Origin: Bacteroidota bacterium
GTDB taxonomy: Bacteria; Bacteroidota; Bacteroidia; Flavobacteriales; Schleiferiaceae
Direction of reading: 5' to 3'
NCBI GenBank assembly: GCA_024742495.1
Contig: JANSYJ010000007.1
Location: 1 to 64,000, forward strand
DNA: 64,000 nt
Numbering within the stretch: position 1 is the first letter of the stretch; each line of letters starts with the position of its first letter. Under the pieces are notes generated by a model that did not search any database, was not told where the DNA came from, and worked only from the letters and a program-made list of their open reading frames with translations. Shown here one piece after another: positions 5,126 to 51,704 of the stretch. Both the position numbers and the translations under genes were made by a program.

Positions 5126-5189
5126 AAGTAGAGGTTTGAAAATTAACATCAGTCCTCCGAAAACAAGTATTGTGCCAGACCGATTCGCT

Positions 5190-8908: not shown

Positions 8909-8941
8909 TGGTTGTGCAATGGTTGCGCAACGGTTGTGCAA
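8909..8941. repeat. Three tandem 11-bp repeats before the integrase gene
   Basis: TGGTTGTGCAA, TGGTTGCGCAA and CGGTTGTGCAA follow each other without gaps. Two related units lie at 13933-13954 near the other end. Such paired clusters fit integrase arm-type or excisionase binding sites. They also show that the frame open from 8912 is not the real integrase start. Confidence 0.75.
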
Positions 8942-8974
8942 ATGTTACTTTTGCAACGTTCAAATGTTCTATTT

Positions 8975-10288
8975 ATGGCAACAATTAAATTTTTGCTGAG
9001 AAGCAAAAGCAAGGCAGCCCCAATTTATTGCAGGTTATCAGCGGGCAGGGCCATTACACCAATGGCGAAAACAGGGCTAACCTGCAGCCCTAGTAAATGG
9101 AGTGCAAATAAAGGTTTGCCCATTGGTAGGGATGAGGCAGGTAAAAGCCTTATTAATGATCTAAATCAATTGTCAGCGGCAATATTTGAGACCCTGAATA
9201 AAGCACAAACTAAAGGGGAGATTATCGATAAGAATTGGTTAGAGGGTGCAATTAATGAGCACTTTAACCGAACCCCGGTTAGGGATTTGGAATATCTAAC
9301 AAATTACGCGGCCCATTTCATTGAGCAACTTCCAACTAAAGTATCTGACAGAGGTAGTTTAGGGGTGAAAACATCAACCGTCAAAAAGTATAAAACCATT
9401 TTAGGGAAGCTCGAAGAGTTTGAAACAAGTCAGGGTAAAAAATATTTGCTCAAGGAGGTTGACCTTAACTTTAGGAGTGTCTTTTTAGACTACCTAATTA
9501 AGGTGAACAACCTCAGCGAAAACACCGCTGGCAGATACATTAGGTTCGTGAAATCCTTTGTTCTTGATGCTCAGAAAAACGGTTTTGAATGCAGTCCGCT
9601 AATAGGAGGTTTTAAAGGTTTTTCGGTTAAGTCTGAAAAGGTGACCCTCACTTTTGCGGAACTAGAGAAAATTAAGAATGCCTATTTTGATAATGAGAGG
9701 TTAGCGGCTGCAAGGGATTGGCTAATTATAGGATGTTACACAGGCCAAAGGGTTAGCGATTTACTGCGAATGAATTCCGGTCTTTTAGTCAACTATGGAA
9801 GGGTGCAGCTCATTTCAATAGCCCAGCAAAAGACAGGTAAAACCGTTCAAATTCCTTTACACAATGAAGTTAAACGCATTTTGGAGAGTCGAAAGGGCGA
9901 ATTTCCGCCCGTATTTGCAAAGCAGCAGGATAGCAATAGTGCCTTATTCAATCGCTACTTAAAGCAGGTATGCAAGACGGCAGGTTTAGACGAACCAACA
10001 AAAGGAGCGAGGAGAGACCCTGAAACGAACCGAAACGCAAAAGGAGTTTACCCTAAGTATGAATTAGTCACCTCCCATATTTGCAGAAGATCATTTGCAA
10101 CTAACTTTTATGGAGAGAGCAATTATCCAACCCCAATACTAATGAATATTACCGGACACAGTTCGGAAAGGCAATTCTTAGAGTACATAGGTAAACCGCC
10201 ACTAGATTATAGTTTGCAGCTGGCGGAAATTTGGGCCAAAGAAAATAGTGCATTAAATCAGGGTCAACCCCTAAGAAAGGTAGAATAG
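8975..10288 (+). CDS. Tyrosine site-specific recombinase (integrase)
   Basis: This 437-aa enzyme would cut and rejoin the tmRNA 3' end and the circular element. An arm-binding domain (MATIKFLLRSKSKAAPIYCR) is followed by a SAM-like core-binding domain (~105-205) and the catalytic domain. The catalytic set is complete: R259 (TGQRVSD), K286/K289 (QQKTGKT), H368 and R371 (SHICRR), H395 (TGHSS) and Y404 (FLEYIG). The ATG at 8975 is chosen because the family starts MATIKF-like and because upstream codons from 8912 are the 11-bp repeats. It lies next to the left att repeat and 1 nt before the next gene. Confidence 0.93.
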   Translation: MATIKFLLRSKSKAAPIYCRLSAGRAITPMAKTGLTCSPSKWSANKGLPIGRDEAGKSLINDLNQLSAAIFETLNKAQTKGEIIDKNWLEGAINEHFNRTPVRDLEYLTNYAAHFIEQLPTKVSDRGSLGVKTSTVKKYKTILGKLEEFETSQGKKYLLKEVDLNFRSVFLDYLIKVNNLSENTAGRYIRFVKSFVLDAQKNGFECSPLIGGFKGFSVKSEKVTLTFAELEKIKNAYFDNERLAAARDWLIIGCYTGQRVSDLLRMNSGLLVNYGRVQLISIAQQKTGKTVQIPLHNEVKRILESRKGEFPPVFAKQQDSNSALFNRYLKQVCKTAGLDEPTKGARRDPETNRNAKGVYPKYELVTSHICRRSFATNFYGESNYPTPILMNITGHSSERQFLEYIGKPPLDYSLQLAEIWAKENSALNQGQPLRKVE

Positions 10289-12126: not shown

Positions 12127-13329
12127 TTGATTGATTATATCAAACTGGGGGTTAACGGCATTTCAATTCCTGAGTTAGAAAGGAACCCGCTCCTTTGCTT
12201 TACCACTCGAATTAACCCAGAGACGGGAGAGTATAAAGGGAGTCATTCTAGGGCCTACTATAAAAATCTAATTTTCAGAGTTTATGATCCTACCCCTGCC
12301 AACCCCTATGGAAGGGTCACATTAGAAGGTAGTTTGCATGTATATTGGAATGAAGGAGTCCATAATTATAATGACTTTAGGATTGAAGATGTAAGAAGTG
12401 TAATTGATGAACTTAGCGCACTCTTTAACCTGAACCCCGCAAAATGTATAATTAGATCCTTAGAAATAGGTGTGAATATCCAACCGCCTGAACCTTCAGA
12501 AAGGATTATACAGTACAGTTTATTTCATAAGACAAAACGCCTTAAAGACACTGAAACCCGCAAAGAGGGTAGCTATATTCTAGGGCAATACGATTGGCAC
12601 CTTATCAAGATCTATGATAAGAGGAAACATGCAGAAGGAAGGGGGATTGTCTTAGATCATGAGATATTGAGGATTGAAAAGAAATGGAAATGCACTGAAG
12701 AGTTAAGGAACTTGAAAATTTTCACTTTGTCCGACCTCCTGGAGTTTGGGCTCCATAACTTTGAGTCGATTCTGGTGCAGGTTTGGGATGAGGTTCTTTT
12801 TTATTGCTGGCAGACTTTAGATGGTACTAGATACGCGGCCAATTATTCGAACCCCAATTACTGGCGAGATCTTAAGAAAGATAATTTTAAATATCATCGA
12901 AAGAGGCTGAGAGAAATGTTAGCAGCAAATCCCGGTAATGTTCAAGCAAAAGTAAGGGAGGCGATTAAGGGCAAAATAAAAGAGTTAAAAACAAATCCTA
13001 CCCAAATTAACCCTTTAGGTATAGTGTTAAATCAGATAGGAGGTTCAAGGAGCGGCACTAAAACAGTTTGCAAGGTTACCGGACTAAATATCGAAATGCA
13101 AAAGGCAGGAAGTTTTCTATTATCACATTCAGGGATTAGGTACTATTTGAAAAACGAACCATTAATTTTCTTACACCTAAAAAAAGAGTACCTCACAAAG
13201 AATTGGGCAAATCAGGATCAAGGAGTACAGGTAAGGGAGTTGGCTCACAATATTAGAAACCGCTGGAATAATTCAAGAATTAGAGCACAAAGGTTAGTGG
13301 ACTCAGGTCAACTATTTCTATCCTTTTAA
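12127..13329 (+). CDS. Probable phage/plasmid replication initiator (II/X family-like)
   Basis: The 400-residue protein starts at a TTG (no ATG is near), giving MIDYIKLGVNG. It shows the pattern of gene II/X-type initiators of filamentous phages and related plasmids: an early DYIKL strand, RVTLEGSLHVYWNEG, an IIRSLEIGVNI strand, HLIKIYDK with a candidate nicking Tyr, and HEILRIEKKWKC followed by a helical tail. Such enzymes nick one strand and start rolling-circle replication. I did not see the HUH motif, which fits the II/X group. It follows a terminator, so it has its own promoter. It suggests the excised element replicates autonomously. Family assignment is by pattern, not search. Confidence 0.7.
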   Translation: MIDYIKLGVNGISIPELERNPLLCFTTRINPETGEYKGSHSRAYYKNLIFRVYDPTPANPYGRVTLEGSLHVYWNEGVHNYNDFRIEDVRSVIDELSALFNLNPAKCIIRSLEIGVNIQPPEPSERIIQYSLFHKTKRLKDTETRKEGSYILGQYDWHLIKIYDKRKHAEGRGIVLDHEILRIEKKWKCTEELRNLKIFTLSDLLEFGLHNFESILVQVWDEVLFYCWQTLDGTRYAANYSNPNYWRDLKKDNFKYHRKRLREMLAANPGNVQAKVREAIKGKIKELKTNPTQINPLGIVLNQIGGSRSGTKTVCKVTGLNIEMQKAGSFLLSHSGIRYYLKNEPLIFLHLKKEYLTKNWANQDQGVQVRELAHNIRNRWNNSRIRAQRLVDSGQLFLSF

Positions 13330-14010: not shown

Positions 14011-14026
14011 GTGGAGCTGGCGGGAG
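14011..14026. repeat. Right attachment-site repeat (att) in the tmRNA 3' end
   Basis: GTGGAGCTGGCGGGAG forms the 3' acceptor and T-stem part of the tmRNA gene and is repeated at 8767-8782. Its identity with the left copy defines the integrated element. Confidence 0.85.
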
Positions 14027-14411
14027 TCGAACCCGCGTGCAAACAAGGAAGTTGAAGGCTTTCTACATGCTTATTTTGTTATTCAGTTTTTGACTTTTAC
14101 GTGGGAACAAACACCCCGATAAAAGCTTAGTTGCGGATTACAGTGTCGCAGGCACTACACAACGCATTACCTGCTAGTCCAGATTTATCGACACCCCTGA
14201 CTCCAAACCAACCAGACTTAGGTTCGGAGGGATGACTTGCTCCAGCGTCTTACGCGTGGATTAGCTCAAAGCCTCATACAGAGTGCTTAGGCGGCAAGTG
14301 CGAAGTTATTTTCGCCAACTATAGTTTGAAGCATCTTTTTTACGGGAGACATCTCCATGTCCCGGCATGCTTACATTCCACTTCATCTTGCTGTCGAAAC
14401 CGATCAGCCCC
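14012..14411 (-). ncRNA. ssrA: tmRNA (transfer-messenger RNA)
   Basis: tmRNA rescues stalled ribosomes and tags the unfinished protein for degradation. The 5' end reads GGGGCTGATCGGTTTCGACA and the 3' end GTTCGACTCCCGCCAGCTCC. GGGGCUG pairs with CAGCUCC (one G-U) to form the acceptor stem, and the T-arm GTTCGA is present. CCA is not encoded. The tag frame at 14287-14316 reads GENNFALAA then stop, typical of Bacteroidota tags ending in ALAA. Length is ~400 nt. The gene's last bases are the integration site of the 8767-14026 element, and its sequence is restored intact. Confidence 0.95.
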
Positions 14412-38470: not shown

Positions 38471-38992
38471 ATGGACTTATTTATTGAAATTTTAAAGTAC
38501 GCTTTACCTTCAATTTTTCTTTTGGTGCTCGTCTACATGATGCTCTCCAATTTCATGGACAATGAAGAAAAGCGACGTATGTATTTTCTGAAAAAGGAGA
38601 CCCAAAAAAGTGCTCTACCAGTGCGTATGGCGGCTTATGAGCGAACGGCACTTTTTTTAGAGCGTATTCATCCCGACCGTTTATTGATTAGGGTTCCCGC
38701 TAAGGAAATAAAAGCCAGACATTACCGCAGTTTATTGGTAGAGAGTATCCGAATGGAATTTGAGCATAACCTTTCCCAACAGATCTACCTCAGTGATGAA
38801 GCCTGGAATTTGGTGGTAAACGCTAAAAGTGCCACGGTTGGACTAATAAACAATTGGGCCCAGGAAATCAGTCCAGATGCCCCTGCTTTTGATCTCTCCA
38901 AGCATATTTTAAATAAGGTTATGGAGATGGAGAACTTCCCAACTAAAGGCGCAATTCGCTATTTAAAGGGAGAGATTCGGGCAAATTTTTAA
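38471..38992 (+). CDS. Conserved membrane-anchored protein of unknown function
   Basis: The 173-residue protein has one N-terminal transmembrane helix (YALPSIFLLVLVYMMLSNFM), followed by a charged stretch and a helical soluble domain (RMAAYERTALFLERIHPDRL, IRMEFEHNLSQQIYLSDEAW). It matches a protein I know as widely conserved in Bacteroidota without a function. It is divergent from the aminotransferase operon. The ~290 nt after it contain no gene that I can support. Confidence 0.78.
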   Translation: MDLFIEILKYALPSIFLLVLVYMMLSNFMDNEEKRRMYFLKKETQKSALPVRMAAYERTALFLERIHPDRLLIRVPAKEIKARHYRSLLVESIRMEFEHNLSQQIYLSDEAWNLVVNAKSATVGLINNWAQEISPDAPAFDLSKHILNKVMEMENFPTKGAIRYLKGEIRANF

Positions 38993-39286: not shown

Positions 39287-39970
39287 TTAGAAACGATAAC
39301 CAATGGAAAGACCACTGCGAGGGTCTATGGCTAGAAATGCACTAATATCGATTATTGGCGTTTCTGTGTATTCCATATCATTCACAAAAAAGTAGCCTAA
39401 TCCTCCCCATATCCCAAGGGTTAATCCAGACTTCCATACATGGGTATAGCCAGCAGTAATACCTGCGGAAATACCGAAATAGCTCGCACCATAGCGCTGA
39501 GTTATATAGTTTGGATTGAAAAGGTTACCAGTGGTATTTACAAATTGTACAAAAGCGGAGTCGCCAGTGGCCATACTCCGAACTTTGGTATACACTCCGG
39601 CGTAAAAGCCATCTAGCCCGGGTCGGCGGCTAGGATTAAAATAATAGCGCACTTCTGGTGCCAGCATATAGCCTCTAAAATAATCTATAGAACTTTCAAT
39701 TCCTCCAGGGCCACTAACGGTTGAGGTAACCGCCATATTTAAAAAGCCTGCCGAAACAACAGCACTGAAATTTTTAGAGAGACCAAACTCAGCGTTTAAG
39801 GAATAAACCCCATTATATACGGGAGCTAAGTTTAGAGCAAGGCCAACATTGCCTCCTTTTCTACGACGGCGACGTCTTCTTTCATCATCCTCTCCATCTT
39901 CGCCGGCAAAGGAGTTAGTAGGAATTAAAGTCGCTAAGATCAGGCATAGCGATACCAATAGATTTTTCAT
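39287..39970 (-). CDS. Predicted outer-membrane beta-barrel protein
   Basis: The 227-residue product has a signal peptide (LLVSLCLILATLIPTNSFAG), an unusual acidic-then-basic linker (EDGEDDERRRRRRRKGG), and a barrel of alternating strands (LALNLAPVYNGVYSLNAEFG, YMLAPEVRYYFNPS, HVWKSGLTLGIWGGLGYFFV) ending GLSIGYRF with the terminal Phe expected for outer-membrane insertion. It resembles the DUF3575-like/OmpW-sized barrels. It is divergent from the first secreted paralog. Confidence 0.72.
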   Translation of the reverse strand: MKNLLVSLCLILATLIPTNSFAGEDGEDDERRRRRRRKGGNVGLALNLAPVYNGVYSLNAEFGLSKNFSAVVSAGFLNMAVTSTVSGPGGIESSIDYFRGYMLAPEVRYYFNPSRRPGLDGFYAGVYTKVRSMATGDSAFVQFVNTTGNLFNPNYITQRYGASYFGISAGITAGYTHVWKSGLTLGIWGGLGYFFVNDMEYTETPIIDISAFLAIDPRSGLSIGYRF

Positions 39971-40290: not shown

Positions 40291-41895
40291 ATGAAATACC
40301 TATACCTTTTTGTTAGTCTGTTCTTAGCGCTTACTATCCACGCCCAAACCACCGTGCAAAAGAGCGCCATATTCGAAGCGGAAGACGCCGGATTTAGCCC
40401 GAAAATTTTACATGAAGACGCCGATTTTATTTATGGTGCTAATGTGGCCCATAATTTAATTAGGGTGGTGGTCTATAATAAGTCCGACTTAAGCCTTAGT
40501 CAGAAATTTGATGTAAAAGTTAGACTGGTGAGTAAAGTAAAGTATGCTTTAATGGAACTCGCTTGGTTTAATGGGAAGATTACCGCTTTTATAAAGGAAG
40601 ACCGGACTTCAGGTGCTACCAGGATTGGGGTTAAGGCATATCCTATCGACCTCAAATTGCGAAAGCTAGAGAAGCCGATTGCACTATACAGTAAGCCTTA
40701 TGAAACCTTTAGCGATCGCGGCCGACTAAAGGTAGATTGCTTGGGTGATAAGGTAGTAATACAGAATGCTACCTATAATCAGGATCGTGATCACACTGAT
40801 AAAGTTCTGGCGGTCTATGATCAAAACCTAAAGGAATTATTGCTGTATAAGTATCAAATGAAATTGGAGTTGGAGGATTTATACAGCATTCCCGCCTTTG
40901 ATAATGAAGGTAATGTGTATTTACAAAACAACCGCAAACTCATTATCCTTCCCAAGGGAAATACTAAGCAAGCTAAGGAGCTTCCTCTTCCCCTAGTTGA
41001 AGAAGAGCGGCTAATTCCATTTAGCTATCAATTGGCCAATACGCCCGATGGCAGAATAGCCCTCACCGCTTTTTACCAGTCGGAGGATGAAGATGAAGAC
41101 ATCTATGCCAACCTGGATGATATCTCAGAATATTATGAAGACGTTGCCACTGAGGGATTGCTTTACTATGTATTTGATCCGGCCAGCCAGGCCTTTATGG
41201 TTCAACGTCGCCATAAATTCGAGCAAAGTTTTGTGGATCGTTTTTTAGAAAGTGGGGATATAGGAGAATTGCCGCGTATTCCGCAAGTCTTTACCAATAT
41301 TAAGTTGCATTTTGATGAGGTGGGAGCTTGTTATCTCCTTGGGGAGCGATTGATTTATCGCCCGTTTTATTCCAATGATTTAATGACTCTTGGTGAGCAA
41401 ATGGGGGAGACCTTTGAAATGGAAGACCTTATTATTCTTAAGGTAAAAGCCAATGGCGACATGGACTGGCAAGAATACGTACCCAAGATGCAGCGCTATA
41501 CTTGGTCTGATGGCAACGCCTTAGTTACCGCTACAGCCACAGAGCGGGAGCTTTCCCAAAAACCCTTAGGTGAATACGATTACTTTTCCTTTTATGCTCG
41601 CTTTGGAGCGGATGGATTAGAATTAATTTACAATGACTACCCAGAGAATGAGCAGGGTCGAGTGTCTTACGAAGATGTAGAAATTTACTATGACTCCGAT
41701 GAAGGTGGTCCCGTATATATTTGTTTCGACAATGAAACTGGAACGGCAAAGGAACGTTCCTATTGGGAGGATTTGGTTATTGAAGATGACCTTTACTTTA
41801 AAACCCAAAACATGTTTTACAGCGAATTGGAAAATGCCTATTATGGCTTTCTGTCTCTAGACGCGGAATATCAGCTAATTCGCTTTGAGCCTTAG
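40291..41895 (+). CDS. Secreted protein, paralog family member 1 (unknown function)
   Basis: The 534-residue protein has a signal peptide (YLYLFVSLFLALTIHAQ), then FEAEDAGFSPKILHE, the family's N-terminal motif. Strand-turn blocks continue to the end (VVVYNKSDLSLSQKFDV, NIKLHFDEVGACYLLGERL, FYSELENAYYGFLSLDAEYQ). The regular strand pattern suggests a beta-propeller, but I recognise no family. There is no T9SS sorting domain, so it is probably periplasmic. It is most similar to the next gene along its whole length, a tandem duplication. Two more distant paralogs lie at 47324 and 49047. Confidence 0.75.
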   Translation: MKYLYLFVSLFLALTIHAQTTVQKSAIFEAEDAGFSPKILHEDADFIYGANVAHNLIRVVVYNKSDLSLSQKFDVKVRLVSKVKYALMELAWFNGKITAFIKEDRTSGATRIGVKAYPIDLKLRKLEKPIALYSKPYETFSDRGRLKVDCLGDKVVIQNATYNQDRDHTDKVLAVYDQNLKELLLYKYQMKLELEDLYSIPAFDNEGNVYLQNNRKLIILPKGNTKQAKELPLPLVEEERLIPFSYQLANTPDGRIALTAFYQSEDEDEDIYANLDDISEYYEDVATEGLLYYVFDPASQAFMVQRRHKFEQSFVDRFLESGDIGELPRIPQVFTNIKLHFDEVGACYLLGERLIYRPFYSNDLMTLGEQMGETFEMEDLIILKVKANGDMDWQEYVPKMQRYTWSDGNALVTATATERELSQKPLGEYDYFSFYARFGADGLELIYNDYPENEQGRVSYEDVEIYYDSDEGGPVYICFDNETGTAKERSYWEDLVIEDDLYFKTQNMFYSELENAYYGFLSLDAEYQLIRFEP

Positions 41896-42003
41896 TTTTT
41901 CCATTGCCGAGCTAAATTTATTGAGTTTTTTAAGTCTGCTTAGGTTTAGCGGAAAAGTGCTTGTTAGAAGGCAATAGGCATTTTGTCGTAGGCTTATTTT
42001 CCG

Positions 42004-42011
42004 TAATCTTA
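42004..42011 (+). promoter_or_regulatory. Putative promoter of secreted paralog 2
   Basis: TAATCTTA (close to TAnnTTTG) lies 18 nt after a TTG at 41983-41985, spaced as -33/-7, and 16 nt before the ATG. A matching TTTTCCGTAACCTTG stretch precedes the M48 peptidase gene, suggesting shared regulation. Confidence 0.4.
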
Positions 42012-42027
42012 CTACTGATATTATTCT

Positions 42028-43668
42028 ATGTCGCGCAATCTTCTTCGCTTTGGCTTAGCCTTGTTTCTTTCAATTTCCGGAAAGGAAATAAATCTTCAGG
42101 CACAATCCACAGTGCAAAAGAGCTCCGTGTTTGAAACGGAGTATGCGGGTTTTAGTCCTAAGCTATTGCACGAAAAGGCGGGCAAAATTTATGGCGCCAA
42201 TGTAGCCCATAATCTTATTCGAGTAGTGGTTTACAATAAGGCAAATCTATCTGAAGAGAGCCAATTTGATGTTGAAATTGGCTTAGCTGATTTGACCCAG
42301 TATGCGCTTTTGGATCTGATTTGGTTTAATGGTAGAATTACGGCCATTATTAAAGAAGATAATGCTTCTGCTACCTGGCTTGGCGTGAAGGCCCTTCCAA
42401 TAAATATTGAGACAAGAAAGCTTGAGAAACCAATTATGCTTTATCGGAAGAAATACGATAAAAGGAGTGAAAGGGGGCAGTTTAAAGTAGACTTTTCCAA
42501 GGAAAGGCTAGTCTTACAAAACGCAAGCTACAGCATAGATCGAGGCATTACTGAAAAACTGTGGACTATATATGATGCGGACTTGAAGAAGCTAATGTCC
42601 TATGAATACCAGGTCCAGGGCAAAGAAGAAGACCTATATTCTAGTGTTGTGTTTGATCAAGAAGGTAACCTTTACTTTCAAAATGATGATCAACTTTTTA
42701 TCCATCCAATGGATGAAACTAAGCCGGTAAAGAAGATAGCCTTACCTATGATTAAGGAGGAGGAGCTAATTGCATTCAGCTTTCAAGTGGCTGCAATGCC
42801 CAATGGACAAATTGCTATATGCGCCTTTTATCAATCTGAGGATAGTATTCAAGAAGCAAATTCCAACTTTGGCGGCATTGAGGTGCCTTTCGATGATTTT
42901 ACTACCGAAGGCATACTCTACTATGTTTTTGATCCATCTAGCCAGGGCTTTGTGGTACAACGCAAGCATAAATTTGAGCAAGATTATGTAGATCGTTTTT
43001 TAGAGGATGATGCTATTGGTAAGCAGTCTAGAATCCCGCAAGTTTTTACGAATATCAAGTTATATTTTGATGAAATAGGAGCCTGTTACCTTCTGGGAGA
43101 GCGATTGGTGCAGCGTCCAATGTTCGACTTTGGGGTTATTTATTCCACCAATACAACCGATGTAAGCAAACAAACTGGGGAAACCTTTGAATTGGAAGAC
43201 CTTATTCTTCTGAAGCTAGATGTACGTGGGGATATTGCTTGGCAAGAGTATGTTCCCAAAATGCAGCGCTATATATGGAGGGACCTAAAGGGAATAGAAA
43301 CTATTTTAGACAGTGATAGGGCTCTTACTCAAAGGCCATTAGGTGAATACGATTACTTCTCTTTTTACGCTCGGCTTGGCGAGGAAGGAATAGAATTATT
43401 TTACAATGACGATGAGAAAAATAAGCAAGGGCGAGTTTCTTATGAGGATGTTAAATTGTACCGGTATCCCGATCAAGGCGGTCCTGTTTATCTGCTATTC
43501 GACAAGGAGTCGGGGGCGGCAAAAACACGCGCCTTTTGGGAGGATTTAGTTGCTGAAGACGATCTTTTCTTTAAAACTCAAAACTTGTTTTATAGCGAGT
43601 TGGAGAAAAGCTATTACGGCATTTTATCGCGCAAAGAAGATTTTCAGCTAATTCGCTTTAGACCTTAG
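42028..43668 (+). CDS. Secreted protein, paralog family member 2 (unknown function)
   Basis: The 546-residue protein has a signal peptide (FGLALFLSISGKEINLQAQ) and is co-linear with the gene at 40291: FETEYAGFSPKLLHE, then VFDPSSQGFVVQRKHKFEQ, RIPQVFTNIKLYFDEIGACY, LLGERLVQRP, GEYDYFSFYARLGEEGIELF and QGRVSYEDV. It is probably periplasmic, with an unknown ligand. The G of its TAG stop is also the first base of GTTGGCGTG, the left boundary of the cassette-like insert at 43668-45116, so the insertion occurred exactly at its stop codon. Confidence 0.75.
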   Translation: MSRNLLRFGLALFLSISGKEINLQAQSTVQKSSVFETEYAGFSPKLLHEKAGKIYGANVAHNLIRVVVYNKANLSEESQFDVEIGLADLTQYALLDLIWFNGRITAIIKEDNASATWLGVKALPINIETRKLEKPIMLYRKKYDKRSERGQFKVDFSKERLVLQNASYSIDRGITEKLWTIYDADLKKLMSYEYQVQGKEEDLYSSVVFDQEGNLYFQNDDQLFIHPMDETKPVKKIALPMIKEEELIAFSFQVAAMPNGQIAICAFYQSEDSIQEANSNFGGIEVPFDDFTTEGILYYVFDPSSQGFVVQRKHKFEQDYVDRFLEDDAIGKQSRIPQVFTNIKLYFDEIGACYLLGERLVQRPMFDFGVIYSTNTTDVSKQTGETFELEDLILLKLDVRGDIAWQEYVPKMQRYIWRDLKGIETILDSDRALTQRPLGEYDYFSFYARLGEEGIELFYNDDEKNKQGRVSYEDVKLYRYPDQGGPVYLLFDKESGAAKTRAFWEDLVAEDDLFFKTQNLFYSELEKSYYGILSRKEDFQLIRFRP

Positions 43669-43699
43669 TTGGCGTGCATTTGACCAAACCAAGAACTTC

Positions 43700-44200
43700 A
43701 TGACAAAACGAGATTTTTTTATCCTGCTACTCAAAATTTTCGGACTCTATTCACTTATTGCTTCGTTGTTTTCAGCTCTTCCAGGACAACTATCATTTTT
43801 AATTCAATCTTTGGATCCCATCTCATTGATCATAATGACAGTTTCTATCGTGATTGTCCTTGGACTTTTTGCCCTGCTCATCTTCAAGGCCGACAAAGTT
43901 GTAAACCTTCTAAAACTCGACAGAGGATTTGACGAGGAAAGGATTGAATTAGGAAAAATTGACTCCGACCAGATTATAAAAATTGGAACCTTCGTTATTG
44001 GAGGTTTTTTGCTGCTGGACCATTTACCGACCTTTCTCAGTCAGACGATTTTCGCTTTCAAAGCCAGTCAAATAGGACTAGACCATAACGATCAAGACAA
44101 AACGATTTGGCTTGCTAACGGAGTGAACATCATAATAGGCTATTTGCTCCTGACCAATTATGATTTCGTTGCGAAAGGACTTAAGACAAAAAAGAAATAA
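43700..44200 (+). CDS. Cassette-borne four-helix membrane protein of unknown function
   Basis: The 166-residue protein has about four transmembrane helices (FFILLLKIFGLYSLIASLFS, LIIMTVSIVIVLGLFALLIF, IIKIGTFVIGGFLLLDHLPT, LANGVNIIIGYLLLTNYDFV) and a Lys-rich C-terminus. No family function is known to me. Similar small membrane proteins recur in cassette-like settings in Flavobacteriia. It starts 24 nt inside the left cassette boundary and ends 7 nt before the attC-like box. Its AT-rich codon use (AAA, ATT) differs from the flanking secreted-protein genes. Confidence 0.75.
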   Translation: MTKRDFFILLLKIFGLYSLIASLFSALPGQLSFLIQSLDPISLIIMTVSIVIVLGLFALLIFKADKVVNLLKLDRGFDEERIELGKIDSDQIIKIGTFVIGGFLLLDHLPTFLSQTIFAFKASQIGLDHNDQDKTIWLANGVNIIIGYLLLTNYDFVAKGLKTKKK

Positions 44201-44207
44201 AAAACGA

Positions 44208-44340
44208 CACGCCAACAACAAATAAACTCAAGGCGGCTTTAACTCCGCTCCGGTAGGGCGTTTACGGTTGACAGAGAAACCTTTCATTTCTTTACAAAAC
44301 CACGAACGAAGCCGCCCTGCGTTTATTCAGGGCCGTTGGC
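44208..44340. repeat. attC-like imperfect hairpin site 1
   Basis: CACGCCAAC (44208-44216), AATAAAC (44221-44227) and GGCGGCTT (44232-44239) pair in order with GTTGGC (44335-44340), GTTTATT (44321-44327) and AAGCCGCC (44309-44316). Unpaired bases lie between, and a ~70-nt centre lies within. The whole is a ~130-nt foldback like an integron recombination site. It does not follow strict RYYYAAC/GTTRRRY at its outer boxes. Confidence 0.7.
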
Positions 44341-44352
44341 ACACATTAAAAA

Positions 44353-44979
44353 ATGACTGATAATCATTTCATAGAAAAATTCAAATCTAAATCTGACACC
44401 GAGTTGGAAATGATTGCAGTGAATTCAAAGTCGTTTGTTTTTGACGCACGATACGCAGCCATTACTTTGCTTAAGGACCGAAATTACGATTCTGATATAA
44501 TTAACCAGGTAGAGAAGGAGTATAAGAACCTTGTAAAAGCCCAGGAATCGAAAACAAAAGACCTAAAAAGCCAAGACCAGCGATTAATAAGAGGAATCCG
44601 ACAAATACCAATTAAAAAAACAGGAAAATATGGTCTTAAAAGTGGAAATGAATTACAAGTAAAAAGACTTAATGAAGATTACTTTCAAGTCAGAATTGAA
44701 GACCATTTTATAAGTGAATTTGCACCAGTTATAATTTGCAAAATTAATGATGACTCAACTTACTTTTGCTACCCGTTTTTATACTTAAAATCGACTCTGA
44801 AATTTGGCTTTGGCGGAACTGCTTTGATAATCATTTTGTCCTTTCTGGGTTATGTGGAAAATGAAATATTTATTTTTTCTCTTCCTCTTGTCATGTCAAT
44901 TGGACTTCAATTGCTATTGATGCCTTTTATCTATTTTGTAATACGTTATTTTTTTAAAAAGCGACTGAGAAAAGAATGA
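44353..44979 (+). CDS. Cassette-borne membrane protein of unknown function
   Basis: The 208-residue product has a charged helical N-terminal half (MIAVNSKSFVFDARYAAITL, LLKDRNYDSDIINQVEKEY) and two C-terminal transmembrane helices (FGGTALIIILSFLGYVE, FSLPLVMSIGLQLLLMPFIY) with a basic tail (FKKRLRKE). The pattern 'TELEMIA..F...AR.AAI.LL..R' resembles a short domain found at the start of many Bacteroidota membrane proteins of unknown role. It starts 17 nt inside cassette 2 and stops 4 nt before the GTGTGCCAA box. Confidence 0.75.
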   Translation: MTDNHFIEKFKSKSDTELEMIAVNSKSFVFDARYAAITLLKDRNYDSDIINQVEKEYKNLVKAQESKTKDLKSQDQRLIRGIRQIPIKKTGKYGLKSGNELQVKRLNEDYFQVRIEDHFISEFAPVIICKINDDSTYFCYPFLYLKSTLKFGFGGTALIIILSFLGYVENEIFIFSLPLVMSIGLQLLLMPFIYFVIRYFFKKRLRKE

Positions 44980-44983
44980 AAAC

Positions 44984-45116
44984 GTGTGCCAATAACACAT
45001 ATTTCTTATGGCGATTAAACCTCTGCGAGCAAGGTTTTCGCTCCGTAGCAAGCTTTGGTTTCCGTGGACAGAAAAGTGCTTCGAAACCGACTCAAGCCAT
45101 ACACAAACCGTTAAGT
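44984..45116. repeat. attC-like imperfect hairpin site 2
   Basis: GTGTGCCAA (44984-44992) complements the GTTGGCACAC at this cassette's own left end. TATGGC (45007-45012) pairs with GCCATA (45096-45101). The right box GTTAAGT (45110-45116) matches the integron consensus GTTRRRY, and its TTAAGT part would be host sequence after insertion. Length and layout match site 1. Confidence 0.6.
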
Positions 45117-45204
45117 GAATTCTTGCGGCCAATTACTACTTCCCTGCAATAAGCGTTTTAGGCGGCCTAGATTTTTCCGTAACCTTGCATTTTGATTTTA
45201 ACCT

Positions 45205-47310
45205 ATGACTCCAAAAAATCTGCGTATTAGCCTAAGCTTGCTTTTGGGCTGTATAACTCTTGCTACTACTTTAAAGGCTCAAATTACCGAGGGTGAATTC
45301 TTAGAAAGTGCTGGTCCTATTCCAGCAGACTTTTTAGAGTCTTGGTCTTCGAAGTTTCAAAATAGTCTTGATCAGGGTCTGGCAACGGATAAAGATGAGG
45401 ATGATCTCGAGGATTTTTGGTTAGAGCAGCATCACGGGATCGATGCCCTACTTCAAAGTGGTCGTTACTCTTTTGGCGACCCATTAACGATTTATATCAA
45501 TGAAATAGCGGATCACTTATTAAGGCATGATCAGGAATTACGTGATCAAATTAGAATTTACACCTTTAGATCTCCTTCTGTAAATGCCTTCACCTTGGCC
45601 GATGGCATCATCGCCATGAATACAGGTTTATTTGCCCACGTTAAGTCTGAGGCAGAATTAGCCTTTGTAATAGCTCATGAAATTGCACATTACACCCAGG
45701 ATCACTTTTACGAATCCTTTAAGGCAAACCGCGAGGCTTCGGAAAACTCCTATGATGGACCATCCTTAAGTTCTCTAGCGAAAATTGAGAATCGCATCGG
45801 TCGTAGTAAGGAGCATGAAATAGAAGCAGATCAATATGGCTTAGAGCTTTATCTGAAGAGCGACTATGCCCTTGAAGCGGTGAATGATTTGTTAAGCACT
45901 TTGCATCGGAGCTATATCCCTTATGGCAGGGCTCAGGTAAGTTCTAATCCCTTTTGTGTAGTGGACGATTGCTTTGAGATCCCCAATTTTTATTACCGGG
46001 AAAAGATCAGTCCAATCAGCCTTTCGGAAGATTATGAAGATCAGAGATTAACCCATCCCAATATTGGAACCCGCAGGAATGCCATCCAGGCTGCTTTAGT
46101 GCAAAGAGAAATAAAGCCAGGGGCACTGTTTGTCATCAGCGAAAGCAGATTTAAAAAACTAAGAGAGTTGGCCCGTTTTGAAGTGGTTCGGGAGCATTTG
46201 AACAATGGCGGATTTGCCTTGGCTCTGTATGATATTTATGTTTTAGAAGGAGAGTATCCAAATAATAAGTTTCTTACCATTTCTAAGGTACAGGCCCTAT
46301 ACGGCTTGGCCAGTTTTAAGGTAGTTGATGAAATTAGCTTGGTAATCCCTTCAAGCACCAAGGTTGAAGGACCTTCGCAACAATTGGTTCATTTAATTAA
46401 GCAGATGAGTCGCTCGCAAATTGTGACTATTGCCCTACAAGCAGCATTAGCCGCAGAGAAAGAGTATCCTACGGAAGCCTATCTTAAGCGTTACTCCAGC
46501 GAATTAGCCAAATACCTATTGGTCTTTTGCGATGAAAGTCCGACTAACTTTATGCAAAGCGCGGAGCAAATCCCGGCTTTCTCTAAATCAGAAACCGAGT
46601 TCCGATCGCCGCGAGCCTATTATCGCGCCCAGCAAAAGCATTACCAAGATTTTCATCGCTATCTAATAAAGGATAAAATCAATCAATCTTGGCTGGAGCA
46701 AGAAATGATAAAGCATGAGCGGTTTAGGGATAGCATTTTGGAAGATCGTCAATTGACCGTTCAGGAGCGCGAAGAGCGATTAGAGGCGAAGTGGGATCGT
46801 TTAGAAGAGCAGGGAAGCGGACTTAAGATTCGGAATTTGGTAGTGCTCGATCCCGTAATTAAAGTGATTAATGTTGGCGATGATCTGGATGAACGGCTGG
46901 AAGGTTTGGAGCAAGAACAGTTATTTAAACAGAATCTTGAAGGCTGGATTGAGGAACAAGGAATAAGGGCGGAATTGCTTTATTCGGAAAGCATGGAAGC
47001 TAATGATACGGAAAGCTACAATCAGTTTTGCAAGCTAGAAGAGTGGGTGCATGAGGCCAGGGTATTTAGAAGTTTTAGCCTGATGCCCATATCTATTGAT
47101 ATTCGCGATGACCTACCCAATTCAAATCGCTATGTGTGTCGCATAATCGGCATTATTGACAAAGATGGCTGGGATTCCTATTATTTTGGATTGTTTGATT
47201 TACAGAAAGGAAGAGTCATTTATCAAAGAGAAGGATCGGTAGGAGTGAAATTAAGTATGAGTGACTTAAAGGAACAAACTCAGAAGGATTTAAACATCAT
47301 ATACAATTAA
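45205..47310 (+). CDS. Secreted M48-family zinc metalloprotease
   Basis: The 701-residue protein has a signal peptide (LSLLLGCITLATTLKAQ), then an Oma1/BepA-like peptidase domain (~75-300). The domain shows INEIADHLL, VNAFTLADGIIAMNTGLFAH, the zinc site HEIAH (158-162) and the third-ligand region EIEADQYGLEL (205-215). The C-terminal ~350 residues are charged and unrecognised. Periplasmic M48 enzymes degrade misfolded outer-membrane proteins. This one sits among four secreted paralogs, so they may be clients or partners (inference). The TTTTCCGTAACCTTG stretch upstream resembles the region before paralog 2. Confidence 0.85.
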   Translation: MTPKNLRISLSLLLGCITLATTLKAQITEGEFLESAGPIPADFLESWSSKFQNSLDQGLATDKDEDDLEDFWLEQHHGIDALLQSGRYSFGDPLTIYINEIADHLLRHDQELRDQIRIYTFRSPSVNAFTLADGIIAMNTGLFAHVKSEAELAFVIAHEIAHYTQDHFYESFKANREASENSYDGPSLSSLAKIENRIGRSKEHEIEADQYGLELYLKSDYALEAVNDLLSTLHRSYIPYGRAQVSSNPFCVVDDCFEIPNFYYREKISPISLSEDYEDQRLTHPNIGTRRNAIQAALVQREIKPGALFVISESRFKKLRELARFEVVREHLNNGGFALALYDIYVLEGEYPNNKFLTISKVQALYGLASFKVVDEISLVIPSSTKVEGPSQQLVHLIKQMSRSQIVTIALQAALAAEKEYPTEAYLKRYSSELAKYLLVFCDESPTNFMQSAEQIPAFSKSETEFRSPRAYYRAQQKHYQDFHRYLIKDKINQSWLEQEMIKHERFRDSILEDRQLTVQEREERLEAKWDRLEEQGSGLKIRNLVVLDPVIKVINVGDDLDERLEGLEQEQLFKQNLEGWIEEQGIRAELLYSESMEANDTESYNQFCKLEEWVHEARVFRSFSLMPISIDIRDDLPNSNRYVCRIIGIIDKDGWDSYYFGLFDLQKGRVIYQREGSVGVKLSMSDLKEQTQKDLNIIYN

Positions 47311-47323
47311 TCAATTTTTTAAG

Positions 47324-48922
47324 ATGCGTTTACAAACAACCTGTTTAGGGATATTTATGCTTTGCTGCTTTTTAGGATCTGCCCAAAAGGTAGATTATGG
47401 AAGCCCTTTTGAAACGGAATACCGAGGATACGAACCCACCATTCTTTTTGAAGATGAGCGGTATTTATACGGCGTGGACTATAATTCACCGGATATTTTG
47501 CTTCAAATTTTTGATAAGAAGAAAAAGTCCTCAAAGAAACGTCACATTATTCCAATCCCAGAATTAAAGAAGGTACGCGAGAAAATCATTCGCTTTGGTT
47601 TCGTTGGCAATAAGTTAGTCCTATTCATGGAAATGGATTTTTATCGGGATGATAGAACCAAACTTTTCGCTTATGTCATTGATGCCGAACGCGGAAAGAT
47701 AGATGACGTAATCACCATAGTTGATAAGCCATACGATCGTTATTCGGAAAAGGGATACTACCAAGTAAAGATTAGTAGAGATACTAAAAGTGTGGTTGTA
47801 AACACGGCCACCTATTACGATGATAGGGATATGACCGACCAACTAATAATGTTGTTGGATGAGAATTTAGAAGCGGTTGAGCAACGTGAGTTTAATATCC
47901 GCGGAAAGAAAATCGAAGTAGGTACCCGCACCTTAATCGATAATGAAGGCACAATCTACTTTCTTGCCGATGATGAATTGGTAATGCTCGATCCCTTCAA
48001 TAATTTTGATGAATGGCGAGAGAAGGTCCCTAGCCAAGATTTGGCGGTAAATGGCGTCTTAAGAAGGCTTGCCTTAAACTTCCGACCCGATGGTAACCTG
48101 GTTCTTACCGGCTTTTATGAAACTACTGATAAGGAAGATCAGCCTGATGCCAACCTCCCACGACGGGACCGCAAGGAAGGTGATACCCAAATAGAGGGCA
48201 TAAAATGCTTGATATTCGATCCATTGAATCAGGAGTTTATTTCTGAAAAACTAACTTTATTTGATCAAGATTTTATTGATGATTTCCGATTGGATGATGA
48301 CAAGCACGATAATCATGATGGAGAAATTAATCAGGATTTCAATGATATTCGTTTTCATTTCGATAATGAGGGGAACTCCTATTTAATTGCTCAGCCCTTT
48401 TACATTCAACGCAGTTATGATCAGAATGGTAGTCTTACCGCGGAATATTATAACTATTTGGAATTAATGCTAATAGGCTTTGACCCAAATGGTGAAATGC
48501 TTTGGGGGGAGCGCGTACCCTTGCGCCAGCAATATTATTGGTCTGGCTTTTTGGGCTTTATCTATGGCTCACATGGCACCACTTTCCTCACTCTGCCCGA
48601 TGAAATTAATGGATTCTTCGATTATACTTCCTTTATTAAGGATGGTCAGATCGTAATTGTCTACAATGATATGCTACTAAACCGCGCTGGTAAAAACCAA
48701 GATCAAGAATTGGAAACGTACCGAAAGATTAAAAAGGGCAATCCCGTGGTGCAGGAGATTAATTTAGCCAATGGAGAAAGAAAGGGCAGCGTGGTTCCCA
48801 ATTTGGCTCGTCCCAAAATGTATTTAAAACCAGGCTTAATGCACTACAGCGCCAAGGATGACACTTTCTACTACTTCTTAGTCTATAAAAAGATGATGCA
48901 GTTGAACAGTTTTAAATTGTAA
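47324..48922 (+). CDS. Secreted protein, paralog family member 3 (unknown function)
   Basis: The 532-residue protein has a signal peptide (CLGIFMLCCFLGSAQ), then the family start motif FETEYRGYEPTILFEDE. It has blocks matching members 1 and 2 in order (GIKCLIFDPLNQEFISEKL, NDIRFHFDNEGNSYLI, YTSFIKDGQIVIVYNDML, MHYSAKDDTFYYFLVYKK). It is more distant from 1 and 2 than they are from each other. It starts 14 nt after the M48 peptidase stop, so the two are probably co-transcribed. A strong terminator follows. Function is unknown. Confidence 0.75.
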   Translation: MRLQTTCLGIFMLCCFLGSAQKVDYGSPFETEYRGYEPTILFEDERYLYGVDYNSPDILLQIFDKKKKSSKKRHIIPIPELKKVREKIIRFGFVGNKLVLFMEMDFYRDDRTKLFAYVIDAERGKIDDVITIVDKPYDRYSEKGYYQVKISRDTKSVVVNTATYYDDRDMTDQLIMLLDENLEAVEQREFNIRGKKIEVGTRTLIDNEGTIYFLADDELVMLDPFNNFDEWREKVPSQDLAVNGVLRRLALNFRPDGNLVLTGFYETTDKEDQPDANLPRRDRKEGDTQIEGIKCLIFDPLNQEFISEKLTLFDQDFIDDFRLDDDKHDNHDGEINQDFNDIRFHFDNEGNSYLIAQPFYIQRSYDQNGSLTAEYYNYLELMLIGFDPNGEMLWGERVPLRQQYYWSGFLGFIYGSHGTTFLTLPDEINGFFDYTSFIKDGQIVIVYNDMLLNRAGKNQDQELETYRKIKKGNPVVQEINLANGERKGSVVPNLARPKMYLKPGLMHYSAKDDTFYYFLVYKKMMQLNSFKL

Positions 48923-48966
48923 TCTAATGCTGCTTAGTTTAAAAGCTTGAAGCAAATAATTCTGAG

Positions 48967-49008
48967 GCCACATTGTAAAGCAAGCGTTTTAAAGTGTGGC
49001 TTTTTTTT
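48967..49008 (+). terminator. Terminator after secreted paralog 3
   Basis: GCCACA (from 48967) pairs with TGTGGC (ending 49000), extended by AAAG/TTGT-type pairs, and is followed by eight T residues. Confidence 0.8.
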
Positions 49009-49046
49009 GAATGAAAATCCCAGTCCAATAAGCTAGCCCTTTAATT

Positions 49047-50633
49047 ATGAAAATGAAAATTAGTCTGTTTTTAATGTCGCTTCTGATAAGTAGCAGTATT
49101 AAGGCACAAGTATCGCAGGAGCCTAAATTTAGTGCTTTATACGAAGCAGAAGAAGGTCCCTTTTCCCCGAGGATTATTTTGGAGACAGAAAGTAGCTTGT
49201 ATTTTACTTACTTCAATGGACCAAAAGATCTATATGTTGGCGCTTTTAATAAAGCCGATATGACTTTGCATTATCAGCAAAGTTTGCCACTACTAGACAT
49301 TAGAGCTAAGGAGTTAATAATTGATTGGAGAGTAAATGGAACAAGTTTAAACTACTTTGTCCTCTATGATATTTTAAGGGACAATCAGTATGTGGTTCAG
49401 GCACATAGTTTTGACCTGCTGAACCAGAAAGATTTGGGAAGTAAAGAAATGTACCGTCGAGACTATAAAAACTCCATGAGTAAAGGAATGATTGATGCCT
49501 ATTTAGGCAATGATCTTAGTAAAATTCTCTTAAAGGATCAGAAAAGAGATCTTGTAGAAAAGACGCTATCGGAAACCTTGTTGGTCTTTAATGATGCATT
49601 TGAACTAGAAAAAAGCATCGAGCTTTATAAGGGGAATGGTGTACCCAAATTGGCATTTTTAAAGCCCCATATTGATGAAGAGAATAACCTCTATTTCATA
49701 ACTGCAAATAGCCTTGTGTTCTTGGATGCTTTTAAGAATTTCGAACGCTATGAGGAAAAGCTTCCTCTAAGCTCCATACCGGTTGGTTCCACGGTATTTC
49801 CTATTTCCTCTCAAATTAAACCAGGCGAAAACCCAATTTTCATTCTTGGCTACAAGGCTAATTTAAACAGACTTAACTATTTTGACTTTGGTTCTGTAAT
49901 ACGGGAGCAGAAATCTTACAAGGAAAGAGAAGGCTTAATTTATGCGGAATTCGATCCACTGAACCAATCTTGGGCGAAATTTATTTTGAACGGTAAGCCA
50001 GAAGGCAGTATAAATATGGGCTATTACCCTTTTGTACGTGGCTCAATATCCCAGACCCAGTTTTATAATTACTTACCAGATGATTTCGGAGCTGGAAATG
50101 ATTACGACAATTTAAGCGATGAAACAGGCACCTTTTACGCGGCATTCTCTTTGGTTCTAAGAAATCAAGGAACTACCAGCAAAGAAATCAGTCATTTCCA
50201 CTTCGATAATATTGTGACATCATTCAGCAAAGAGGGTCAGCTAAATTGGGTGCAAAATGTAACTTATCTGGCTGAGCTTGATAAACCTGTAGATGAAATT
50301 TTCAAGATCGACGATTATTTTGATTTTAAGCTGTTAGAGGACAAAGAATCCATCTACTTATTGATGAATGATATGCCTGAGAATAAAGGAATCGATATTG
50401 ATGATTATGATGAGCTAGAACCAGTACAAGACTATGACGATATAGTTCCCGTTCTTATTCGGTTTAATAAAGTTAGTGGGGCGGCGGAGCGCATTTCTGC
50501 CATTAACTTAAGTGAGGAGGATTTATTTCTTAATGTAAGCTCTCTGCATAAAAGTAGCACCGAGGCAGGCACATACTACTATTTTATAAGTAATGATGAT
50601 GAGTTTAAGCTAGCACATTGGTCAATGCGCTAG
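49047..50633 (+). CDS. Secreted protein, paralog family member 4 (unknown function)
   Basis: The 528-residue protein has a signal peptide (ISLFLMSLLISSSIKAQ) and the family motif YEAEEGPFSPRIILETE. Strand blocks continue to the end (GAFNKADMTLHYQQSLPLL, GLIYAEFDPLNQSWAKFIL, YYYFISNDDEFKLAHWSM). An acidic insert (IDIDDYDELEPVQDYDDIVP) sets it apart. It has its own transcription unit, between two terminators. It is the most divergent of the four. The fold is probably beta-propeller-like by strand periodicity, but I recognise no family. Confidence 0.72.
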   Translation: MKMKISLFLMSLLISSSIKAQVSQEPKFSALYEAEEGPFSPRIILETESSLYFTYFNGPKDLYVGAFNKADMTLHYQQSLPLLDIRAKELIIDWRVNGTSLNYFVLYDILRDNQYVVQAHSFDLLNQKDLGSKEMYRRDYKNSMSKGMIDAYLGNDLSKILLKDQKRDLVEKTLSETLLVFNDAFELEKSIELYKGNGVPKLAFLKPHIDEENNLYFITANSLVFLDAFKNFERYEEKLPLSSIPVGSTVFPISSQIKPGENPIFILGYKANLNRLNYFDFGSVIREQKSYKEREGLIYAEFDPLNQSWAKFILNGKPEGSINMGYYPFVRGSISQTQFYNYLPDDFGAGNDYDNLSDETGTFYAAFSLVLRNQGTTSKEISHFHFDNIVTSFSKEGQLNWVQNVTYLAELDKPVDEIFKIDDYFDFKLLEDKESIYLLMNDMPENKGIDIDDYDELEPVQDYDDIVPVLIRFNKVSGAAERISAINLSEEDLFLNVSSLHKSSTEAGTYYYFISNDDEFKLAHWSMR

Positions 50634-50655: not shown

Positions 50656-50684
50656 AAAGGGAGTACGAAAGGCTCCCTTTTTTA
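50656..50684 (+). terminator. Bidirectional terminator between paralog 4 and meaB
   Basis: AAAGGGAG pairs with CTCCCTTT around a 9-nt loop, with T-runs downstream on the plus strand and A/T-rich sequence on the other side. It serves two convergent genes. Confidence 0.8.
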
Positions 50685-51704
50685 TTTGAAAATTTTCTCA
50701 ATCAATCGATGGGCAGCAACTCCTGCCTCAATGTCGCCATTTTCCACCCCTATTCTGATTTCTTTGTAAGCATCTTGATAGATGCTTTGAGAATGCACTT
50801 GATCCAAAACCATTTCCCCAATACTCTCTTCAAACCAGTCCAAAGCCTGCCTTTGCCTTTCCTTTTGGAGATGGCCATTATTTATTTGTTGATTCTGAAA
50901 GGATTCTATCACCTCCCAGGCTTCAGAAATACCTGTTTTATGAAGGGCCGAGCAGGAAAGCACTTTGGGAATCCAGTCATTGGCATTAGGTGGAAAAAGA
51001 TGTAAGGCTCGTTTGTATTCGCCCATAGCGAGTTTTATCTGCGCATCCTTAGGATCATCGGCCTTATTAATGAGCAGTAAATCGGCCATTTCCATAATCC
51101 CTCTTTTTATACCTTGTAATTCATCACCGGCACCGGCCAGCATGAGCAGCATGAAAAAGTCTACCATATTGCGAACGGTGGTTTCACTTTGGCCTACCCC
51201 AACCGTCTCTACTATAACAATATCAAAACCGGCGGCTTCGCAGATTAAAATACTTTCCCTAGTCCGTCTTGCCACGCCCCCCAAAGAGCCACTAGATGGA
51301 GAAGGACGGATAAATGCACGCTTATCTTGGGATAAATCATGCATGCGGGTTTTATCCCCGAGAATACTGCCTCTATTTCTACCACTGCTGGGATCTATAG
51401 CTAAAACCGCGAGCTTCTTACCATTGTCAATTAGGTGTTTCCCAAAGGCCTCAATAAAGGTAGATTTCCCAACTCCCGGAACGCCGGTAATGCCAATGCG
51501 AATGGACCCACCGGTATAGGGCATTAGTCTTTGCAGTAATTCTTCGGCCATTCGCCGATGTGCCGCTAGCTTACTTTCACAAAGGGTGAGAGCCCGACTA
51601 ATAAGGCCGCGGTCTTGCGCTAATATTCCTTTTTCCAGCTCTTTAATGGAAGGCAGTTTAAAGGATTTGGCTCGGCCGCGGAAATTGGGATTTAAGGCAT
51701 CCAT
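50682..51704 (-). CDS. meaB: Methylmalonyl-CoA mutase-associated GTPase MeaB
   Basis: The 340-residue G3E GTPase protects and reloads methylmalonyl-CoA mutase with adenosylcobalamin. Visible motifs are Walker A GITGVPGVGKSTFIEAFG, AVLAIDPSSGRNRGSILGDK, RAFIRPSPSSGSLGGVARRT, the Mg-binding IVIVETVGVGQSE, and LLINKADD (guanine specificity). Length is normal. It is the last gene of the mutA-mutB-ybaB-meaB run, starting directly after the ybaB stop with no gap. Confidence 0.95.
   Translation of the reverse strand: MDALNPNFRGRAKSFKLPSIKELEKGILAQDRGLISRALTLCESKLAAHRRMAEELLQRLMPYTGGSIRIGITGVPGVGKSTFIEAFGKHLIDNGKKLAVLAIDPSSGRNRGSILGDKTRMHDLSQDKRAFIRPSPSSGSLGGVARRTRESILICEAAGFDIVIVETVGVGQSETTVRNMVDFFMLLMLAGAGDELQGIKRGIMEMADLLLINKADDPKDAQIKLAMGEYKRALHLFPPNANDWIPKVLSCSALHKTGISEAWEVIESFQNQQINNGHLQKERQRQALDWFEESIGEMVLDQVHSQSIYQDAYKEIRIGVENGDIEAGVAAHRLIEKIFK

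Follow-up and report, generated by a model that had tools for sequence, protein, structure and literature searches.

An M48 metallopeptidase gene and the putative propeller gene behind it as a probable matched pair in a family of Bacteroidota

Why should four related genes surround a gene for an M48 metallopeptidase, and is one of the four products the partner of the peptidase? This question is raised by a cassette in a 64,000-nt stretch of a Schleiferiaceae genome (Bacteroidota; assembly GCA_024742495.1, contig JANSYJ010000007.1), referred to here as the window, the whole of which is the frame for the window coordinates; the host genome (G000) has 3.6 Mb and is 99.92% complete. The four proteins belong to an unnamed family whose members are, in our reading of a model of moderate quality, eight-bladed beta-propellers, and the M48 gene, of the type called A in this work, lies just in front of the third of them. 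Sequence comparisons showed that the type-A M48 gene and the propeller gene downstream of it stay together, diverge together and differ together between near-identical flanks. Because the two genes are neighbours and were seemingly replaced between genomes as a matched pair, our findings suggest that their products work together. We tentatively hypothesize that they constitute, in the cell envelope, a protease similar to BepA, an M48 metalloprotease of outer-membrane assembly in Escherichia coli, with a cognate and exchangeable propeller partner.

Linkage, divergence and probable exchange of the pair

All 12 type-A M48 genes (11 whole and one, in L045, split in two frames) are followed immediately, on the same strand and with a gap of -7 to +28 nt, by a gene of the propeller family, two of these partners (L139 and L140) being cut by contig ends. 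Eight pairs lie at a locus between a DUF7935 gene and meaB, two in the context of L052 and L058 and one in that of L050, while the contig of L140 is too short to tell. In the window the gap is 13 nt, with no terminator-like site in it according to a consensus scan, which agrees with the original prediction, made from the letters of the DNA, that the peptidase and the third family member form one unit. Type-A M48 was found in 9 of 88 genomes of the host's taxonomic family, all nine with the propeller family; since the latter also occurs in 64 of the 79 genomes without type-A M48, it is adjacency, and not presence, that constitutes the signal. An M48 profile search gave 40 rows, of which 13 were the 12 type-A genes and 17 were other genes fetched with their surroundings; none of the remaining 10 adjoins a family gene by coordinates, as far as the contigs reach. 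Outside the host's taxonomic family, no convincing type-A M48 was found among the few candidates scored in a phylum-wide sample of 296 genomes (at most five first-look family candidates and three M48 candidates per genome, so that counts from it are lower bounds), the best M48 match having an E value of 2.4e-36 over half the profile.

Phylogenies agree with this arrangement. In the M48 tree, group A (nine rows) is one side of a branch with support of 100/99, and the M48 genes of L138, L139 and L140, found later by profile and all three with a family gene behind them, fall inside it (Shimodaira-Hasegawa-like approximate likelihood ratio test, SH-aLRT, 100). In the family tree, the 11 sufficiently long partners, eight genes from the same loci and three others form a group of 22 rows, with an SH-aLRT of 94 that is below the support star of the tree tool. 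The identity matrices of M48 and partner are correlated (Pearson 0.92 for 12 pairs, permutation p about 1e-4), and without two or three close relatives Pearson is 0.84 or 0.80, with Spearman at 0.66-0.74. Adjacency and correlated divergence would also be expected if the propeller were a substrate, cleaved or matured by the adjoining M48, but most propeller relatives live without type-A M48 and we consider this role quite improbable. The two genes might even be chance neighbours whose linkage was kept through shared ancestry only, given that the flanks of the main locus are conserved and a single inheritance of the linkage is therefore possible. Nevertheless, the two genes are linked in three or more contexts, and near-identical flanks enclose different cassettes; chance is already disfavoured and seems to us very improbable.

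The probable exchange is best seen at eight loci with the same flanks (the window, L031, L045, L046, L048, L049, L138 and L139), namely an aminotransferase and a DUF7935 gene on one side and meaB on the other, the contig of L139 ending before meaB. The cassettes at this conserved locus hold one to four family genes, consistent with the expansion by duplication that had been anticipated from the window. DUF7935 was found in 81 of the 88 genomes, and in 20 other genomes inspected via this gene, 10 lacked meaB next in line, five had an empty site (L161, L164, L165, L171 and L172), two had another gene there (L162 and L163) and three had one or two barrel-like genes that are kin of the window DUF3575 gene (L158, L159 and L160). 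Between L045 (G001) and L046 (G005), the flanking DNA is 92.5% and 90.7% identical on the two sides and the MeaB proteins are 98% identical, whereas identity falls to 21% for M48 (over a 404-aa piece) and 17% for the partner. BLASTN finds no similarity across these two cassettes; what similarity there is ends in the spacers next to the flank genes, 6 nt beyond meaB and 61 nt beyond the stop codon of DUF7935 (in L045). For the seven loci with both flanks, r is 0.88 between M48 and partner and 0.88 between the flank proteins, against -0.28 between M48 and MeaB and -0.10 between partner and MeaB. Recombination in the flanks and the sorting of old duplicates can both yield this pattern; in our judgement exchange is favoured, because the edges of similarity are sharp and lie between flanks of about 91% identity.

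The ratio of nonsynonymous to synonymous substitution rates (dN/dS) was measured in one close pair of loci, L058 and L052, in which no positive selection was found: it is 0.11 for the propeller, 0.13 for M48 and 0.13 for a nearby barrel-like gene, with 0.01 and 0.02 for the neighbours c105 and c107. The propeller dS of 0.96 exceeds the 0.28-0.44 of M48, the barrel-like gene, c105 and c107, and this excess, located mainly in codons 1-300, makes an imported tract likely in this propeller gene (L058:10078-11631, L052:9832-11385). It is conceivable, if unlikely, that the locus is a hypervariable cassette in which M48 and its cognate propeller recombine together and leave orphan propellers behind, in a conflict-like exchange whose targets might be, for instance, phages, competitors or variable surface barrels; our literature search found no hypervariable M48-propeller exchange system of such kind. 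The propeller could also be a cognate inhibitor or protector of M48, as in protease-inhibitor or effector-immunity pairs, with the extra copies as orphan protectors. A matched pair with the enzyme gene before the partner gene, extra partner copies at four of the eight DUF7935-meaB loci and strong divergence between near relatives would all fit an inhibitor, but the dN/dS values of propeller and M48 indicate no average diversifying selection in the pair measured, core propellers are widespread without M48, and no delivery or sorting domain was seen in the window peptidase (P0003) with Pfam or NCBIfam. We therefore regard an inhibitory role as doubtful.

A possible partner of the peptidase or of barrel-like neighbours

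In the reading that we prefer, a BepA-like protease with a cognate propeller, the M48 protein, which is probably exported, and the propeller would bind at a matched interface, the propeller acting as a substrate-presenting or plug-releasing subunit that aims M48 at outer-membrane clients, while the extra propellers of a cassette would be recognition subunits too, either alternative ones or earlier ones no longer in use. The client may perhaps be a DUF3575-like outer-membrane barrel, since such genes adjoin both the propellers and another type of M48. A periplasmic or envelope system, as stated in the original prediction, is plausible in view of the N-termini, the likeness of the peptidase to BepA and the DUF3575-like genes nearby. 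Of 18 genes of the second M48 type (type B), 16 have behind them, in the same orientation, a small barrel-like gene from cluster c2 (L053, L055, L057, L059, L061, L062, L063, L073 and others), which makes the two a second putative M48-partner pair; the 18th type-B gene (L054) comes from another family of the order. None of the 18 type-B genes with fetched surroundings is followed immediately, in its own orientation, by a propeller-family gene, and L056, with one on the opposite strand, is the only type-B locus that adjoins the family.

Sequence pattern and knowledge of the family suggest that the barrel-like proteins are outer-membrane barrels. Two sets of these neighbours are related (profile comparison probability 95.9%), and a joint profile, which matches 9 of the 16 c2 genes weakly (E 2e-6 to 7e-4), places such a gene directly beside a family gene at 14 of 64 loci and in several unrelated contexts; L078 and L155 in this count are one region, both without a barrel-like neighbour. 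Therefore, the propellers might be independent partners or maturation factors of DUF3575-like barrels, M48 having joined one lineage as a co-regulated, non-binding gene. The distribution agrees with this possibility, since the propeller family occurs in 73 of the 88 genomes, against nine for type-A M48, and in at least 32 of the 296 genomes of the phylum sample, host included (three of the 32 weakly, E 2e-10 to 2.6e-6). If the propellers were independent barrel partners, there would be no reason to expect joint differences of M48 and propeller between constant flanks or a correlated divergence of the two, and 50 of the 64 loci have no barrel-like neighbour, so that we see this explanation as possible but rather unlikely.

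The last number also weighs against the preferred reading of M48 and propeller as cognate partners, as do several other points. Most family members occur without type-A M48 (64 of the 73 family-positive genomes), so the tie of peptidase and family that had been proposed holds from the side of type-A M48 and fails from the side of the family; of the two outcomes named in advance as speaking against it, members found mostly without the peptidase were observed, and a match to a known propeller family was not (0 of 39 members convincing). Group A was first marked by its adjacency to the family, which leaves only three of the 12 cases independent, the type-A loci share ancestry, and the partner-group genes L032, L047 and L077 have no adjoining M48. 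DUF3575 (PF12099) is matched by three of eight barrel-like neighbours scanned (window 39287-39970, L031 and L067), four others having no Pfam match and that of L053 (cluster c2) a sub-threshold match to BCSC_C, and in G003, G004 and G006 the DUF7935-meaB locus has a DUF3575-like gene and no family gene. In the comparison of L045 and L046, the latter has one extra propeller gene, kin of window paralog 1, and the type-A M48 of the former (L045:8681-10785) is split into frames of 285 and 404 aa by assembly or decay, G001 being a draft of 95% completeness; the loss of alternative old cassettes could also mimic exchange. The M48 model is unusable (mean predicted local distance difference test, pLDDT, 36.5). 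Finally, the physical pairing, the envelope location, the adaptor or activator role and the barrel clients are inferred from the gene evidence.

The window cassette and the propeller family

The features of the window are collected in Table 1. As had been predicted, four proteins of 528-546 aa surround the M48 gene, and they are probably secreted, judging by N-terminal sequences inspected by eye. Their graded divergence was also confirmed, with 59, 27 and 24% identity of paralogs 2, 3 and 4 to paralog 1 in the family alignment. BLASTP likeness, nearly full-length in each case, is beyond chance for the pairs 1/2 (639 bits), 2/3 (26%, E 1e-45), 3/4 (20%, E 9e-18) and 1/4 (23%, E 4e-14), and paralogs 1 and 2 have the nucleotide repeats D1-D5 in common. 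The N-terminal motif (F/Y)E(T/A)E...(F/Y).P..L ascribed to all four is present in paralogs 1-3, while paralog 4 has I at the last position (YEAEEGPFSPRII); the wider family does not share this motif. Paralog 1 is 81% identical to L031:2270-3874, at the equivalent locus of a same-genus genome, and the host has two further paralogs outside the window, on C30 (L032, 531 aa) and C17 (L149, 520 aa).

Table 1. Genes and sites of the cassette and its flanks (window coordinates)
Feature	Position	Strand	Remarks
DUF7935 protein, left conserved flank	38471..38992	+	PF25589, E 1.2e-60
DUF3575 protein, barrel-like, divergent from paralog 1	39287..39970	-	PF12099, E 6.2e-09
Putative propeller paralog 1	40291..41895	+	534 aa; open reading frame (ORF) list and BLASTP
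Putative propeller paralog 2	42028..43668	+	546 aa; closest window relative is paralog 1 (58%)
Membrane-type ORF	43700..44200	+	166 aa; no relative in other cassettes
ORF with C-terminal hydrophobic stretches	44353..44979	+	208 aa; no relative in other cassettes
Type-A M48 metallopeptidase (P0003)	45205..47310	+	701 aa; PF01435 and trees
Putative propeller paralog 3	47324..48922	+	532 aa; presumed cognate M48 partner; modelled as eight-bladed propeller
Putative propeller paralog 4	49047..50633	+	528 aa; groups with the contig C30 paralog, both on long branches
Terminator-like stem, end of unit	50656..50680	+	consensus match only
meaB, right conserved flank	50682..51704	-	PF03308, E 6e-104

The cassette has a GC content of 39.7%, against 42.7 and 44.1% in its surroundings. 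A consensus scan found no + strand terminator-like site in the gaps between cassette genes, and the site 3' of paralog 4 consists of a 9-bp stem and a T-run; promoter scans gave matches no commoner than chance, and no repeats were found at the cassette edges. Two small membrane-type ORFs (43700-44979) separate paralog 2 from M48. The first, of 166 aa, has no match over cut-off in Pfam or NCBIfam and is unclustered at a BLASTP threshold of 1e-6. The second (P0007) has the minimum GC among the cassette genes (32%) and a weak match to a 2TM effector of PADLOC (E 1e-4).

That the family is unstudied, as the original prediction had it, accords with the lack of a Pfam, NCBIfam or PHROGs entry describing its members. 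Among 39 members scanned with Pfam, 22 families were matched, each by a single member, the propeller-type ones at E 0.018 or weaker; the best match was the type IX sorting domain Por_Secre_tail, in one member (6.2e-06), and the C-terminal sorting domain of the type IX secretion system is absent from the four window paralogs in Pfam and NCBIfam. A known propeller family was thus ruled out, with no match over cut-off in Pfam or NCBIfam and none in PHROGs. Paralog 4 has one weak PADLOC match (0.0072), and weak matches to IcmS, Tachylectin and PorZ (P0002) were also seen. Iterated profiles over the fetched stretches gathered 42 ORFs and later 86, L078 and L155, one region, being counted twice. A core type (L065, L067 and L069) is flanked by a queA-like gene with a small barrel-like gene and by an rlmN-like gene, the names queA and rlmN, and that of aspartate aminotransferase, being our assignments by eye from the sequences. 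Arrays of family genes without M48 exist, and one of six genes was seen at L071:497-12013 (G027).

Elsewhere in the window, a tyrosine recombinase gene (PF00589, PF13102) at 8912-10288 lies not far from the transfer-messenger RNA gene at 14011-14411, and an element integrated at ssrA is possible there; the 400-aa ORF between the two (12127-13329) has no Pfam match. A protein with an HU-HIG domain (PF18291) is encoded at 4727-5149.

Comparison with known envelope systems

P0003 matches PF01435 with 70.4 bits (cut-off 20.3, E 2.3e-19) and has the motifs HEIAH from residue 158, EIEAD from 205 and the plug motif HPNIGTR from 284. Of 31 aligned M48 rows, 30 keep the HExxH, the glutamate column and the HP; the remaining one, from the split gene of L045, is a C-terminal piece that lacks this region. 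Besides M48-type models, Pfam gave one weak M78 match and NCBIfam gave none. P0003 resembles BepA in the M48 domain, the HExxH, the downstream glutamate and the HPx4R plug, and BepA is its closest sequence match in the PDB (7.2e-10); it differs in that the match is confined to about residues 90-180 and in being encoded with a propeller. The best NCBIfam match is the BepA equivalog NF052400, at 67.9 bits and below its cut-off of 570, and no tetratricopeptide repeat was matched by Pfam, helices in that region appearing only in the poor model. The HPx4R histidine of BepA is described as the fourth zinc ligand, on a plug thought to shift for activity, in the part consulted of PMC7950410, and BepA degrades stalled barrels at the beta-barrel assembly machinery (BAM), according to passages of PMC8423444 and PMC13067283; by analogy, P0003 may have comparable functions. 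M48 proteases of outer-membrane assembly are called poorly understood in a passage of a recent review (PMC13067283), and the pair bears on the open question of how such proteases are aimed and released from autoinhibition. Matched pairs that differ between near-identical flanks offer natural cognate and non-cognate combinations, and they would give a first functional context to a propeller family that has no name and is found across Bacteroidota.

The AlphaFold2 model of paralog 3, built with six sequences (pLDDT 71.5, predicted TM-score 0.70), is beta throughout, apart from a helix at the N-terminus and some short turns. Its best VIA-align match is WDR41 (Z 18.1, 316 residues aligned, root-mean-square deviation 4.0); BamB entries constitute 27 of the best 50 matches listed (Z 15.4-17.3), and designed eight-bladed propellers have a similar Z range. 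Plain Foldseek gave TM-scores by query of at most 0.42 among the 50 matches listed, and the four paralogs, when used in a profile search of the PDB, had a single match (E 0.54). BamB was rejected by sequence, with a probability of 0.7% in the profile comparison to E. coli BamB, against 100% for a left-out family member used as control. TIGR03300 had no match at E<=1 in the four window paralogs and nine relatives, nor at E 0.01 in the host genome, while as a control it matched 11 of 14 genomes, over cut-off in one.

Likeness to BamB is therefore that of an eight-bladed propeller fold, at the level of the model, and since unrelated propellers tie with BamB, the model resembles eight-bladed propellers as a class and not BamB specifically. 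BamB is a lipoprotein of BAM with 392 residues, whereas the members of the present family have ~530 and no lipobox, a simple lipobox pattern being found in just one of 84 family ORFs, with a doubtful start. The DUF3575 (PF12099) proteins are neighbours of the propeller genes and not their relatives. BAM of Bacteroidota comprises BamA, D, G, H, M and P in the part consulted of PMC12611786, in whose main text a word search found no word starting with propeller, peptidase, M48 or BamB. A layer of BepA type that includes a propeller would, if true, be new in Bacteroidota; contact with BAM is not implied by our data, and what the M48-propeller pair has in common with the Bacteroidota BAM is the same phylum and the same envelope.

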